Part shown: positions 39,474-48,716 of the stretch, in pieces
Position numbering within the stretch: position 1 is the stretch's first letter
Layout of the letters: the number at the start of each line of letters is the position of its first letter
NCBI GenBank assembly: GCA_016866775.1
Contig: VGLJ01000001.1
Coordinates: 62,001-126,000 of the forward strand
DNA length: 64,000 nucleotides
Direction of reading: 5' to 3'
DNA from: Candidatus Rokuibacteriota bacterium
GTDB lineage: Bacteria > Methylomirabilota > Methylomirabilia > Rokubacteriales > CSP1-6
Made by a program: the position numbers and the translations under genes
The notes under the pieces: generated by a model
Database searches by the model: none
Seen by the model: the letters and a program-made list of their open reading frames with translations, nothing else
What the model was told of the DNA's origin: nothing

Positions 39474-39532
39474 GCGTGGCTCCTTCCGCGGGCCATTGTA
39501 GACCGCGGCGGTGAATGATAGAGAAGCCGGGC

Positions 39533-41272
39533 ATGAGCCACGTGCGGGACGGGATGCGGATCGACTGGGACGTGCCGATCACCGTCGACGACGGCCTGGT
39601 GGTGCGCGCCGACGTGTTTCGCCCCCTCGCCGACGGGCAGTATCCGACGATCCTCTCCTACGGCCCGTACGGGAAGTGGCTCCACTTCGAGGACCTCTAC
39701 ACCGACCAGTGGCGCCGCATGGTCGACCAGCATCCCGACGTCGCCGCCGGATCGACGAACAAGTACCAGAACTGGGAAGTCGTGGATCCCGAGAAGTGGG
39801 TGCCCGACGGGTACGCGTGCGTGCGGGTCGACTCGCGTGGCGCCGGGCGCTCGCCCGGCCACCTCGATCTCTGGTCCGCGCGCGAGGCGAAGGACCAGTA
39901 CGACTGCATCGAGTGGGCCGCGCGCCAGCCGTGGTCGAACGGCAAGGTCGGGCTGAACGGCATCTCCTACTACGCGATGAATCAGTGGCAGACGGCGGCG
40001 CTCCAGCCGCCGCACCTCACCGCGATCTGCGTCTGGGAAGGCGCCGCCGACTACTACCGCGACCTCTCGCACCATGGCGGCATCCTGTGCGCGTTCGCGC
40101 GCGCGTGGTTCCCCTCGCAGGTGATCCGCGTGCAGCACGGGCTCGGCGCGCGCGGCTACCGCTCGCGGATGACGGGCGACTGGGTCTCCGGCCCGCCGAC
40201 GCTGACCGAGGAAGAGCTGGGTGCGAGACGCAACGACTTCTGGCAGGACTGCCGCAATCACCCGCTCGCGAGCCACGAGTACTGGCGCTCGCGCATGCCG
40301 GACTGGTCGAAGGTCACGGTCCCGGTGTTCTCGGCCGCGAACTGGGGCGGCCAGGGTCTGCACCCGCGCGGGAACTTCGAAGGCTTCGTGCGCGCGGCCT
40401 CGCGGCAGAAGTGGCTCGAGGTCCACGGCATCGAGCACTGGACGCACTTCTACACGGACTACGGCGTCGCGCTCCAGAAGAAGTTCTTCGGCCACTTCCT
40501 GAAGGGCGAGAACACGGGCTGGCGCCAGCAGCCGAAGGTCGTCCTGCAGGTGCGCCACCCGGGCGAGAGGTTCGTCGAGCGTGCGGAGAGTGAATGGCCA
40601 CTGGCACGCACGCGGTGGACGAAGCTCTACCTGAGCCCGGCCGAGGCGGCGCTCGTCCGGAAGCCCCTCGCGAAGAACGCCGCCGCGACGTACGCGGGGT
40701 TTGGCGACGGGGTCACGTTCCTCACGCCGCCGATGGACCACGCGACCGAAGTGACGGGTCCGATCGCCGCGAAGCTTTTCGTGTCGTCGGAGACGACGGA
40801 CGCCGACCTGTTCCTCGTCGTCCGCGTCTTCACCCCGGACATGAAGGAAGTGACGTTCCAGGGTGCGCTCGATCCCCACACGCCGGTCGCGCAGGGCTGG
40901 CTGCGCGCGTCGCACCGCAAGCTCGACCCCGCGCTCTCGAAGCCCTACCGTCCGTATCACACACACGACGAGATCCAGCCGCTGAAGCCAGGCACCATCT
41001 ACGAGCTGGACGTCGAGATCTGGCCGGCGTGCATCGTGGTGCCGCCCGGCCATCGCATCGGCCTCACCGTGCGCGGACGCGACTACGAATTCCCCGGCGG
41101 CCCCTCCACCGGGCTCGGGACGCTCGGCGCGGTCTTCACCGGCGTCGGACCGTTCAAGCACGACGACCCGCGCGATCGGCCCGCGGACGTCTTCGGCAAG
41201 CGGGTCACGCTACACTGTGGGCCGTCCCGGCCGTCGCGCCTGCTGCTGCCGGTCATTCCCGCGAAGCGATAG
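39533..41272 (+). CDS. CocE/NonD family hydrolase (X-Pro dipeptidyl-peptidase-like)
   Basis: A 579-residue serine hydrolase. VRDGMRIDWDVPITVDDGLVVRADVF opens the alpha/beta domain, the nucleophile lies in GLNGISYYAMNQW (GxSYxG-like), the acid region in VFSAANWGGQG and the base in HGIEHWTHFYTDYG. The C-terminal half is the jelly-roll CocE domain (LFVSSETTDADLFLVVRVF). ATG 39533 follows AGCCGGGC; ATG 39515 six codons earlier is possible. It cleaves an ester or amide of unknown identity. The next gene is a cupin ten bases later. Confidence 0.88.
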   Translation: MSHVRDGMRIDWDVPITVDDGLVVRADVFRPLADGQYPTILSYGPYGKWLHFEDLYTDQWRRMVDQHPDVAAGSTNKYQNWEVVDPEKWVPDGYACVRVDSRGAGRSPGHLDLWSAREAKDQYDCIEWAARQPWSNGKVGLNGISYYAMNQWQTAALQPPHLTAICVWEGAADYYRDLSHHGGILCAFARAWFPSQVIRVQHGLGARGYRSRMTGDWVSGPPTLTEEELGARRNDFWQDCRNHPLASHEYWRSRMPDWSKVTVPVFSAANWGGQGLHPRGNFEGFVRAASRQKWLEVHGIEHWTHFYTDYGVALQKKFFGHFLKGENTGWRQQPKVVLQVRHPGERFVERAESEWPLARTRWTKLYLSPAEAALVRKPLAKNAAATYAGFGDGVTFLTPPMDHATEVTGPIAAKLFVSSETTDADLFLVVRVFTPDMKEVTFQGALDPHTPVAQGWLRASHRKLDPALSKPYRPYHTHDEIQPLKPGTIYELDVEIWPACIVVPPGHRIGLTVRGRDYEFPGGPSTGLGTLGAVFTGVGPFKHDDPRDRPADVFGKRVTLHCGPSRPSRLLLPVIPAKR

Positions 41273-44517: not shown

Positions 44518-45180
44518 ATGGGCAAGACGCGCTTCGATTTCTCGGGACAGGTCGTCGCGATCACGGGCGCCGGGAAAGGCATCGGCAAAGGCGCGGCGAT
44601 CGCGTTCGCGGAGGCGGGCGCGCGCGTCTTCGCGATCGATCACACGCCGGTCACCGGCGAGACGACGGTCAAGGCGATCCGCGACGCCGGCGGGCAGGCG
44701 GCGTTCATCGCCTGCGACGTCAGCGACGCGGGGAGCGTGAGCGCGGCGTTCCAGCGCATCGAACGGGACGCCGGCCGGCTCGACGTGCTCGTCAAGAGCG
44801 CCGGCGGGTTCTCGAAACAGATGGCGACCGACGAGACGCCCGAGGACGAGTGGGATCGCGTGATCGACGTCAACCTCAAGGGCGTCTTCCTGTGCGCGCA
44901 GGCCGCGATCCCGCTCTTCAAGCGCCAGCGCAGCGGGCGCATCGTCAACCTCGGCTCGATGGCCGGGCTCACGACGATGGCGCCGGAGACGACGGCCAGC
45001 GAGCGCGTGGTCGCGCTGCGCTCGCCGGAACAGCGTGACGCGATCGGCAAGGCGACGCTCGTCGGCCGCATCGCCGAAGTGTCCGACATGGTCGGCTGGG
45101 TGCTGTTTCTCGCGGCGCCCGAAGCGTCGTATCTCACCGGGCAGACACTCGCCGTGAACGGCGGAAGGTTGATGGTGTGA
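44518..45180 (+). CDS. SDR family oxidoreductase lacking the YxxxK segment
   Basis: A 220-residue short-chain dehydrogenase-like protein. The Rossmann motif TGAGKGIGKG, the DVS acidic turn, the Asn of DVNLKG and the Ser of NLGSMAG (Ser147) are present. After METTA (residue 160), where the Tyr should stand, the sequence jumps to SERVVALRSPEQRD, the segment usually some 30-40 residues further on. So the catalytic Tyr-x3-Lys and following helix are missing without loss of frame. NNAG has become KSAG. It is expected to be inactive unless repurposed. It leads a four-gene operon (TGATG with the ligase). Confidence 0.85.
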   Translation: MGKTRFDFSGQVVAITGAGKGIGKGAAIAFAEAGARVFAIDHTPVTGETTVKAIRDAGGQAAFIACDVSDAGSVSAAFQRIERDAGRLDVLVKSAGGFSKQMATDETPEDEWDRVIDVNLKGVFLCAQAAIPLFKRQRSGRIVNLGSMAGLTTMAPETTASERVVALRSPEQRDAIGKATLVGRIAEVSDMVGWVLFLAAPEASYLTGQTLAVNGGRLMV

Positions 45181-46697
45181 TGAGCGTCCAGGCATTCACG
45201 GTCTACGACATGATCGCGCGCGGCGCGGCCGCCACCGGCAGCGCGCCGGCTCTCATCCAGGGAGATCGGACCGTCAGCTTCCGCGAGCTGCGCGAGCGCG
45301 TGGATACGCTCGCGGCGGGCCTCTCGGGTCTCGGCATCGCGAAGGGCGACCGCATCTGCATCCTCGCCCAGAACGACGTCGCGTACGTCGAGCTGTACGG
45401 CGCGTGCGCGCGGCAGGGCATCATCGCGTATCCGATCAACTGGCGCCTGACGGCCGAAGAGGTGGCGCGCGTGCTCGAGCGCGCGACGCCGAAGATGATG
45501 GTGGTCGACGGCTCGACACTCGGCGTGGCCGGGAGCTGGCCCGGCGAGAAGAAGACGATCGCGCACTGGTACCAGTTCGGCGCGAGCGCCGCGTCCGGCT
45601 TCAAGGCGTTCGACTCGCTGTACGGGGGCGCGCCGCCGGCCGCGGCCGACGTCGGCGGCGACGATGCGTTCGCGGTGATCTCCACCGCGGCCGTCGACGT
45701 GATCCCGCGCGGCGCGGTGCTCACGCACGCGAACGTGCTCGTCGCGAGCCTCACGGCCATCGCGTGCCTCGGCTACACCGCGACGGATCGCTATCTCGCC
45801 GCGCTCCCGCTGTTCCACATCACGGCGCTGGGCGGATGGCTGGCGCACATGCTCGCGGGCGGTGCCAGCGTGGTGGTCTCGCGCTTCGACGCCGAGGAAG
45901 CGGTGCGGCTGATCGACCGCCACAAGATCACGCATGTCTCCGACTTTCCGCCGGTGCTCGCGAGCATCCTCGACGCGGCCGAGAAGCTCGGCAGCCGGCT
46001 CGAGAGCCTGCGCTACGTCTCCGGGCTCGACGCGCCGCCGACGATCCAGCGCCTGCACGACCGCACGCAAGCGAAGTTCTGGACGGGGTTCGGCCAGTCG
46101 GAGACGACCGGCTTCGTCACGATCCAGCGCGTCGTCGACAAGCCCGGCGCGGCCGGCAAGCCGATCCCGTCGTGTCTCGTGAAGGTCGTCGACGACTACG
46201 ACCGCGACGTCCCGGCGGGCACGCCGGGCGAGATCGTCGTCCGCGGGCCCCTGGTCTTCCAGGGCTACTACGATCAGGCCGACGTCACCGCGTACACGCT
46301 GCGCAACGGCTGGCATCACACCGGCGACGTGGGCCGCTTCGACGACGACGGCTCCCTCTATTACGTGAAGCGGAAACCCGAGAAGGAGCTGATCAAGCCC
46401 GGCGGCGAGAACGTGTACCCCGCCGAGGTCGAGAGCGTCATTGTCCAGATGGACGGCGTCAGCGGCGCGTGCGTCTACGGGATCCCGGACGCGCGGTGGG
46501 GTGAAGCGATCAAGGCCGTGGTCGAGGTGAAGGGCGCCAGCGCGTACACCCCGCAGCAGGTGATCGACTTCGTGGCCTCGAAGATCGCGCGCTTCAAGCG
46601 GCCGAGCGTCGTCGAGTTCACCGATGCGCTCCCCCGCACCGCGGAGGGCGCCGTCGATCGCGACGCCGTCAAGGCGAAGGGGGAGAAGCCCGCATGA
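45180..46697 (+). CDS. AMP-dependent synthetase/ligase-like protein with altered motifs
   Basis: A 505-residue acyl-CoA synthetase-like protein. GFGQSETTGF (A5) and GWHHTGDVGRFDDDGSLYYV with KPGGENVYPAEVE (A7/A8) are intact. The P-loop, normally TSGTTGxPKG, reads ISTAAVDVIPRGAVLTH (about residue 165-182), and the C-terminal catalytic Lys motif reads LPRTAEGAVDR, Ala in place of Lys. Length and fold are otherwise normal. It could be a non-adenylating relative or a CoA-binding/acyltransfer variant. It overlaps the neighbours on both sides. Confidence 0.87.
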   Translation: MSVQAFTVYDMIARGAAATGSAPALIQGDRTVSFRELRERVDTLAAGLSGLGIAKGDRICILAQNDVAYVELYGACARQGIIAYPINWRLTAEEVARVLERATPKMMVVDGSTLGVAGSWPGEKKTIAHWYQFGASAASGFKAFDSLYGGAPPAAADVGGDDAFAVISTAAVDVIPRGAVLTHANVLVASLTAIACLGYTATDRYLAALPLFHITALGGWLAHMLAGGASVVVSRFDAEEAVRLIDRHKITHVSDFPPVLASILDAAEKLGSRLESLRYVSGLDAPPTIQRLHDRTQAKFWTGFGQSETTGFVTIQRVVDKPGAAGKPIPSCLVKVVDDYDRDVPAGTPGEIVVRGPLVFQGYYDQADVTAYTLRNGWHHTGDVGRFDDDGSLYYVKRKPEKELIKPGGENVYPAEVESVIVQMDGVSGACVYGIPDARWGEAIKAVVEVKGASAYTPQQVIDFVASKIARFKRPSVVEFTDALPRTAEGAVDRDAVKAKGEKPA

Positions 46698-47758
46698 TCC
46701 CGAAGACCATGCGCGCGATGGTGCTGCCGCACTTCGGCGCGCCGATGGAGCTGCGCGAGGCGCTGGTGCCGAAGATCGGCCCCGGCGACGTCCTGCTGCG
46801 CGTGCGCGCGGCGGGCGTCGGGCTGACCGTCGTCATCATGATCGCCAACCCCGGGCGCGTGACCAGCTTTCCGCGCATCCCCGGCCATGAAGTCGCGGGC
46901 GAGGTCGTCGAGATCGGCGCCGAGGTCGCCAACGTCAAGGTCGGGGATCGCGTCGTCAACCACTTCTACCTCACGTGCGGCGCGTGCCGCTTCTGTCGCA
47001 GCGGACGCGAGACGCTGTGCACCGCGTTCAAGGGGTACGTCGGGCAGGCCTCGGACGGCGGCTACGCGGAGTACATGAGGCTGCCCGCGCGCAACGTCAC
47101 CGTGATTCCGCCCGGCGTGAGCGACGTCGACGCCGCGGTCGCCACGGACGCGATCGCGACGCCGTACCACGCGTGTCGTGAAGAAGCGCGCGTCGGGCCG
47201 GGCGACAGCGTGCTGATCGTCGGCGCCGGTGGCGGCGTCGGCATCCACGGCGTCCAGATGGCCAAGCTCTGCGGCGGCTGGGTGGTCGCCGCCGACGTGA
47301 CCGACGAGAAGCTCGCGGCCGCGCGGCACGCGGGCGCCGACGCGGTCGTCGACGCGCGGCAGGGCGATCTCGCGGCGCTGGTGAAGCGGGCGACCGACGG
47401 CCGCGGCGTCGACGCGGCGATCGACTTCTTCGGCTCGCGCGAGACGCTGCAGGGCGCGCTCGGCTCGCTCGCGCGCGCCGGCCGGCTCGTCATCATCGGC
47501 AGCCGGCCCGCCGCGGTGTTCGGCGCCGATCCGAGCTTCGTCGTCGATCCGCAGCGCATGCTCTACGACATGCTGGAGATCCACGGCTCCCGCTACGTCA
47601 CGCTCACCGAGATCTCGCAGACGCTCGAGCTGATCCGCCAGGGCCGCATCAGCCCGGTGGTGAGCAAGCACTTCCCGCTCGAGAGCGCGGAGGAGGCGCA
47701 CGAGCTCCTGCGCACCAACGCCATCCCCGGGCGCGCGGCGCTCGTGCTGGAGGGATGA
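46694..47758 (+). CDS. Zinc-binding alcohol dehydrogenase-like protein
   Basis: A 354-residue MDR-family protein. It keeps IPGHEVAGEVV (His, Glu), the structural zinc cysteines of CGACRFCRSGRETLC, the third ligand region VATDAIATPYHA and the nucleotide motif VGAGGGVGIHG. The first catalytic zinc Cys (GxC) is replaced: AAGVGLTVV (Gly43). Catalysis may use another ligand or the family may be shifted in chemistry. Coupled to the ligase by ATGA and one base from the cyclase gene. Confidence 0.88.
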   Translation: MIPKTMRAMVLPHFGAPMELREALVPKIGPGDVLLRVRAAGVGLTVVIMIANPGRVTSFPRIPGHEVAGEVVEIGAEVANVKVGDRVVNHFYLTCGACRFCRSGRETLCTAFKGYVGQASDGGYAEYMRLPARNVTVIPPGVSDVDAAVATDAIATPYHACREEARVGPGDSVLIVGAGGGVGIHGVQMAKLCGGWVVAADVTDEKLAAARHAGADAVVDARQGDLAALVKRATDGRGVDAAIDFFGSRETLQGALGSLARAGRLVIIGSRPAAVFGADPSFVVDPQRMLYDMLEIHGSRYVTLTEISQTLELIRQGRISPVVSKHFPLESAEEAHELLRTNAIPGRAALVLEG

Positions 47759-47759
47759 G

Positions 47760-48716
47760 ATGCCGAAGCTGACGCGCGAGGACGTGCTGAAGAAGGCCGA
47801 GGAGCTCAAGAACTGGGGCAAGTGGGGCCCGGACGACGAGCTCGGCGTGCTGAACTACATCAGACCGGAAGATATCGTGAACGCGGCGCGCCTCGTGAAG
47901 AAGGGCAAGGTGTTCCGCCTCGGGCTCGAGCTCGACGAGAACGGGCCGCAGCGCGGGCTCTTCGGCGGGCGCTGGAATCTCATCCATCAGATGCTCGCGA
48001 CCGGCACCGATGCGGTCGCGGGAAAGCACGACGTGACGCCCGCGCTCCGCTACGCGGACGACGCGATCAACGTGCCGACGCAGGCCGGGACACAGCTCGA
48101 CGCGCTGTCGCACGTGTTCCTCGTCGACAAGATGTGGAACGGCTACCCGGCCACGCTCGTCGACACGCGCGGCGCGCACAAGAACGGCATCGAGAAGTTC
48201 GCCGACAAGATCGTCGGCCGCGGCGTGCTGCTCGACGTCGCGCGCATGAAAGGCGTGCCGTCTCTCGAGGACGGCTACGGCATCACCAACGCCGACCTCG
48301 ACGCGACGGCGGCGAAGCAGAAGGTCGAGGTCCGCCGCGGCGACTTCGTGCTCGTGAACACCGGCCAGATGGCGGACCGGCTCGCGAGGAAGGACTGGGG
48401 CCAGTACGCCGCGGGCCCCGCGCCCGGCCTCGCGTTCGAGACCGTCGACTGGATCCACGCGAAGCAGATCGCGGGCATCGGCAGCGACACGTGGGGCATC
48501 GAAGTCCGGCCGAACGAGACGGGCCCCGACGTCTTCCAGCCGTGGCACTGGGTGACGATCCCCGCGATCGGCATCGTCCACCACGAGATCCTCTACCTGA
48601 AGGACCTCGTCGCGGACTGCGCCGGCGACGGCGTGTACGAGTTCTTCTACTGCGCGCCGCCGCTGGTCATCACGCGCGGCACGGGCTCGCCGACGAACCC
48701 GCAGGCGATCAAGTAG
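47760..48716 (+). CDS. Cyclase family protein (kynurenine formamidase-like)
   Basis: A 318-residue cyclase-fold protein. The metal loop reads AGTQLDALSHVFLVDKMWNGY: the kynurenine-formamidase HGTHxD has Gln for the first His, as in a known subgroup. WGIEVRPNETGPDVFQPWHWVTIPAIGI is the second conserved region, with Asp/His ligands. Family members hydrolyse amides or cyclic substrates such as isatin. It ends the four-gene operon and abuts the convergent VOC gene. Confidence 0.85.
   Translation: MPKLTREDVLKKAEELKNWGKWGPDDELGVLNYIRPEDIVNAARLVKKGKVFRLGLELDENGPQRGLFGGRWNLIHQMLATGTDAVAGKHDVTPALRYADDAINVPTQAGTQLDALSHVFLVDKMWNGYPATLVDTRGAHKNGIEKFADKIVGRGVLLDVARMKGVPSLEDGYGITNADLDATAAKQKVEVRRGDFVLVNTGQMADRLARKDWGQYAAGPAPGLAFETVDWIHAKQIAGIGSDTWGIEVRPNETGPDVFQPWHWVTIPAIGIVHHEILYLKDLVADCAGDGVYEFFYCAPPLVITRGTGSPTNPQAIK

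Follow-up and report, generated by a model that had tools for sequence, protein, structure and literature searches.

Results

Four neighbouring genes with altered active sites

Do four adjacent enzymes that all depart from the textbook active-site motifs of their families share unusual chemistry, or are they decaying? An operon in the window (the whole stretch of 64,000 nucleotides analysed, from a Candidatus Rokuibacteriota genome) raises this question. Its four co-directional ORFs overlap or abut one another and belong, in gene order, to the Pfam families adh_short; AMP-binding with AMP-binding_C; ADH_N with ADH_zinc_N; and Cyclase. The ORF coordinates and Pfam assignments thus agree with the arrangement given in a preliminary description of the locus. 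Scanning the operon for promoters and terminators, we detected nothing. As every frame of this GC-rich DNA holds long open frames, openness is weak evidence, and we placed the weight on orthologue comparisons. The features discussed below are as follows.

44518 to 45180, + strand: SDR-family gene of 220 codons with an internal in-frame deletion (Pfam adh_short; alignment to three full-length orthologues; AlphaFold2)
44971 to 44976, + strand: SDR deletion junction, lying between codons 152 and 153, at which 35 codons (105 bp) of the orthologues are absent (orthologue alignment)
45177 to 46697, + strand: ANL-superfamily ligase of the TAA-motif clade, a predicted non-adenylating acyl-AMP:CoA acyltransferase, starting at GTG 45177 or ATG 45180
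45681 to 45728, + strand: altered A3 loop of the ligase, STAAVDVIPRGAVLTH instead of TSGTTGxPKG
46629 to 46673, + strand: altered A10 segment of the ligase, LPRTAEGAVDRDAVK, without the catalytic lysine
46694 to 47758, + strand: MDR (zinc alcohol dehydrogenase superfamily) gene whose codon 43 specifies Gly instead of the catalytic-zinc Cys
46976 to 47020, + strand: intact structural-zinc lobe of the MDR, four Cys (C95, C98, C101, C109)
47760 to 48716, + strand: cyclase-like PF04199 gene with the Gln motif, resembling the metal-dependent esterase MGS0169
48081 to 48113, + strand: modified metal motif of the cyclase, Q108-xxx-Q112-x-D114-xxx-H118

An in-frame deletion removes the SDR active site

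We aligned the window SDR to three orthologues from other genera of the same family (G052, G005 and G027), no more than three being found among 95 genomes of the phylum. Exactly 35 residues are absent from the window protein, YxxxK included, and the reading frame is unchanged. YxxxK, the mark of a classical active SDR, is intact in all three orthologues. The preliminary description had correctly reported its loss; its statement that every enzyme is full-length does not hold for this gene. In the known SDR fold, the deleted residues correspond to helix aF and strand b6. In AlphaFold2 models, which are no proof of misfolding, the block past the junction has a pLDDT of 25-39, and the same helix in the G005 orthologue has 75-90. 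Next to the junction, the glycine of a PG pair that is invariant in the other rows is Glu in the window. The Asn of the N-x-AG motif has become Lys. The remainder of the gene is 63-69% identical to the orthologues, which share 69-82% with one another. Its pN/pS against them is 0.41-0.52, compared with 0.26-0.49 between the orthologues. Searching viral contigs for the junction returned nothing, as expected. Despite the deletion, the SDR stop codon overlaps the ligase start; translational coupling of the two genes can persist because the deletion is in frame and this overlap is kept.

We conclude that the SDR has lost catalysis, provided that the assembly is right at the junction. The deletion is known from one draft assembly (159 contigs, one strain), and outside the gap the gene is nearly as close to its orthologues as they are to each other, as a gene intact in the organism would be. 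An assembly error would have had to leave a gap precisely in frame, and the adjacent Gly to Glu change and the Asn to Lys change are those expected after loss of function. We regard such an error as improbable.

The dehydrogenase and the cyclase belong to conserved non-canonical subfamilies

The dehydrogenase has the MDR fold with its structural-zinc lobe (PF08240 and PF00107; four Cys). As described earlier, it lacks the first catalytic Cys: Gly43 occupies the place of the catalytic-zinc Cys in GVCxT, and it does so in all close orthologues too. Homologues at 59-79% identity all read GVGLT[VI]V. Paralogues near 45% identity mostly lack the Cys as well, with L059 and L061 keeping GVCGTD. Thr45, His65 and Glu66 (GHE) are retained, as is Asp152 at the third-ligand position. 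Disruption of the catalytic zinc site need not abolish reductase activity in MDRs, as plant DPAS and RedOx1 show (PMC12224309). The enzyme probably acts as an MDR reductase with a changed active-site metal or none, and unusual chemistry is possible for it.

Near the operon lies a CocE/NonD-type (Peptidase_S15) hydrolase gene (39515-41272 of the window); in two relatives (L128, L131), homologues of it sit directly upstream of the dehydrogenase orthologue. In G049 (L129:5411-7448), a Gln-motif cyclase with about 53% identity to the window cyclase comes immediately after a dehydrogenase orthologue, the only such pair in the regions read.

The cyclase departs from the classical PF04199 amidohydrolase motif, HxGTHxDxPxH, at both His of HxGTH. 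The first is Gln, as the preliminary description stated, but the change is not confined to a single site, the second being Gln also. The window protein instead carries QxxxQxDxxxH together with the equivalents of Arg87, His286 and Glu299 (R71, Q108, Q112, D114, H118, H263 and E276 in the window), and the active-site residues of PDB 5IBZ map to identical residues in it. PDB 5IBZ is MGS0169, a Mn-stimulated esterase affected by alanine mutation of Gln127, Gln131 or Asp133, and the same modified motif was noted in trans-dienelactone hydrolase (PMC5341072). The unusual chemistry of this family is thus already documented. By analogy, the window cyclase probably hydrolyses esters or lactones with Mn or Zn as its metal and would be of the same kind as these two enzymes. 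It shares with L075 (G048) two departures from their relatives close to the active site: TQWD is replaced by TQ[LV]D and VHGEIF by VH[HF]EIL, which possibly reflects a substrate change.

The ligase belongs to a multi-phylum clade with altered A3 and A10 motifs

The ligase has the ANL fold, with PF00501 and PF13193 above cut-off and matches to PDB 3IVR and 5UPQ. Motif comparison confirmed that it has neither the TSGTTG loop nor the A10 GK lysine. Strong matches occur in 30 of 57 family genomes, and all family ligases covering the motifs read TAAV...PRG and lack the A10 lysine; paralogues in the window genome (G000) show the usual motifs. Scanning public genomes, we found 80 loci, 50 with altered motifs and 29 canonical relatives that served as controls. 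The 50 come from Tectimicrobiota, Acidobacteriota, Thermodesulfobacteriota, Myxococcota, Nitrospinota, Nitrospirota and Pseudomonadota. In 56/56 clade rows other residues stand in place of the loop's GTT and there is no A10 Lys; 35/35 canonical rows carry both. The A5 Glu is kept in all rows, clade and canonical, and a 13-row alignment shows no variation at the A7 Asp or the A8 Arg. A further mark of the clade is an invariant KELIK segment that comes with a 2-residue insert.

In a 94-row tree, made by a quick method with a midpoint root, the altered ligases including PDB 3IVR form one group (SH-aLRT 99). Its sister is PtmA2 with a Sphaerisporangium protein (SH-aLRT 99), PtmA2 joining at some distance. 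The window ligase has the expected residue in all 173 invariant columns, and its terminal branch is as long as those of its siblings. The Sphaerisporangium corydalis protein (L216) is PtmA2-like, with YTAAFDGRPN in the A3 loop and a shortened A10 glycine-lysine region, and groups with PtmA2.

The ligase gene has left a transporter operon

In relatives, the ligase gene belongs to an operon of liv-type transporter genes that also encodes a small globin, an acyl-CoA dehydrogenase and a long-chain-type acyl-CoA synthetase (ACSL) whose TSGTTG loop is intact. The operon includes an SDR gene too; this SDR is intact and is not of the subfamily to which the window SDR belongs. The ligase stands between the globin and the acyl-CoA dehydrogenase, and the operon also holds a PfkB-like kinase and a transaldolase-like protein, these two named by eye. 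The window genome keeps this ancestral operon on contig C23, where globin and acyl-CoA dehydrogenase genes are about 8 bp apart with no ligase between them. The slot is empty; therefore, the ligase gene has moved out of the liv-type operon in this lineage. The G013 ligase, sister of the window ligase in the tree, is likewise outside the operon. It comes after a gene of the mandelate racemase / muconate lactonizing family (L123:7956-10607), a hint of lactone or aromatic-acid chemistry. Contig C23 carries two ACSL and liv-transporter sets in tandem (L153/L154, G000:C23:6329-25399), the second being the ancestral operon minus the ligase.

Outside the family, a canonical ACSL lies within 9 kb of 17 of 50 altered-ligase loci versus 0 of 29 controls (p = 1.4e-4), and near 9 of 18 versus 0 of 16 among loci with full flanks (p = 1.1e-3); both p values are optimistic, the loci being related to each other. 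By pattern, 16 of the 17 nearby ACSLs have the A10 lysine and 13 the TSGTT loop. Within the family, ACSL occurs in 30/30 ligase-bearing genomes and in 22/27 ligase-less ones, so phyletic coupling of the two is weak because ACSL is nearly universal. The window operon itself encodes no adenylating partner; a candidate ACSL is on another contig of the window genome (C23:14051-15916).

In regions fetched from family genomes, we found no homologous four-gene operon. The genes occupy different neighbourhoods in the relatives, and the altered motifs accordingly do not co-occur as a set in homologous operons, a check proposed in the preliminary description.

Discussion

The apparent active-site loss across this operon is not one phenomenon: three conserved variants stand beside one deletion. 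By sequence comparison, the ligase, the dehydrogenase and the cyclase come from old, conserved families for which such an active site, odd by the textbook, is normal. Their variants are fixed in the subfamilies and are therefore not decay. Both answers offered earlier fail as stated: a coherent set with unusual chemistry does not fit a damaged SDR and motifs without co-occurrence, and three decaying members alongside an active cyclase do not fit the fixed variants. Homologues with intact motifs, the proposed sign of simple decay, turned up for the SDR only.

Could the whole operon nevertheless be decaying, its proteins remnants? The broken SDR would suit this, as would the window cyclase, which has private substitutions in 10 of 216 invariant columns compared with 0-5 in its relatives. 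However, the ligase, dehydrogenase and cyclase give pN/pS values of 0.29-0.53 in comparisons that include the window gene, dN/dS being rough at this divergence, and a remnant would hardly match the ligase's clean invariant columns and ordinary end branch. We rejected operon-wide decay on the conservation of the altered motifs across subfamilies and consider it highly unlikely. The case shows that orthologues should be consulted before the absence of a textbook motif is taken as decay.

How the ligase works is the more consequential question. In ANL enzymes, the A10 lysine acts in the adenylation conformation, the P-loop binds the ATP phosphates, and A7 and A8 hold the ribose (PMC8388817). Altered A3 and A10 with retained adenylate-binding residues is the pattern expected of an enzyme that would use acyl-AMP, not make it, because the adenylation elements are lost and A5, A7 and A8 stay. 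Unusual chemistry is thus likely for this enzyme. Most likely it keeps only the thioesterification half-reaction, like its relative PtmA2. A separate canonical ligase would make the acyl-adenylate; the window-type ligase would bind the acyl-AMP and then transfer the acyl group to CoA. We infer this split mechanism, and the loss of adenylation could differ between PtmA2 and the ligase clade. Alternatively, the protein may be a complete acyl-CoA ligase that adenylates by other residues, such as the lysines of KPEKELIKPGG, and needs no partner. The clade-specific invariant KELIK segment with its insert would fit this, as would the many loci that lack a nearby ACSL and genes, such as that of G013, outside the operon. 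Against it, both losses strike adenylation elements, the P-loop and the A10 Lys, and leave the adenylate-holding residues in place. PtmA2, too, lacks the same elements and is reportedly a non-adenylating acyl-CoA ligase. We rate a complete ligase as rather unlikely.

Taken together, it is reasonably probable that the operon combines three functional enzymes of long-established non-canonical subfamilies, with activities and substrates assigned by comparison, and an SDR inactivated by an in-frame deletion; its ligase would most likely perform thioesterification only, its gene having come from a liv-type operon. More tentatively, we suggest a broader reading: the clade, which is large and spans several bacterial phyla, may consist of non-adenylating acyl-CoA ligases, often encoded close to a canonical ligase and a liv-type transporter. 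Carboxylic-acid activation would then be split between two enzymes, apparently in catabolism, and the division described for one antibiotic pathway may be widespread. If the clade cannot adenylate, the formation of acyl-CoA by two enzymes extends well past platensimycin biosynthesis; the label of fatty-acid CoA ligase that these proteins usually receive is wrong; and many environmental bacteria would have acyl-AMP in common as an intermediate. In itself the window is rather unremarkable; the interest lies in the ligase clade, which deserves biochemistry.

Comparison with known systems

Like classical SDR oxidoreductases, the window SDR keeps the Rossmann N-terminal half, TGxxxGIG and the catalytic Ser and Asn; unlike them, it has lost the Tyr and Lys of the tetrad along with helix aF and strand b6. 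The dehydrogenase resembles plant DPAS and RedOx1 (PMC12224309) in its MDR fold and the replacement of one catalytic zinc ligand, a change with which reductase activity persists in those enzymes. However, they are of a distant lineage, and the window MDR loses the Cys only, keeping His, Glu and Asp. The cyclase shares QxxxQxDxxxH and the active-site Arg, His, Glu and Phe with MGS0169 (5IBZ) and with the trans-dienelactone hydrolase of Pseudomonas reinekei, but reads TQLD where they read TQWD.

The ligase falls in the same clade as PDB 3IVR, which shares its altered motifs; this structural-genomics entry is labelled a putative long-chain fatty-acid CoA ligase, and our literature search found no published function for it. 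The closest functional parallel of the window ligase is PtmA2 (PDB 5UPQ) of platensimycin/platencin biosynthesis. PtmA1 and PtmA2 appear to carry out the half-reactions separately (PMC6594144). PtmA2 and the window clade have in common the ANL fold, TAA in place of the A3 SGT, the absence of the A10 lysine and an Asp after the A10 site, and they are sister groups in our tree. They differ in that PtmA2 is about 30% identical to the window clade and is a biosynthetic enzyme of actinomycetes, whereas the window clade carries PRG and KELIKPGGEN signatures, is widespread and is found in transporter operons.
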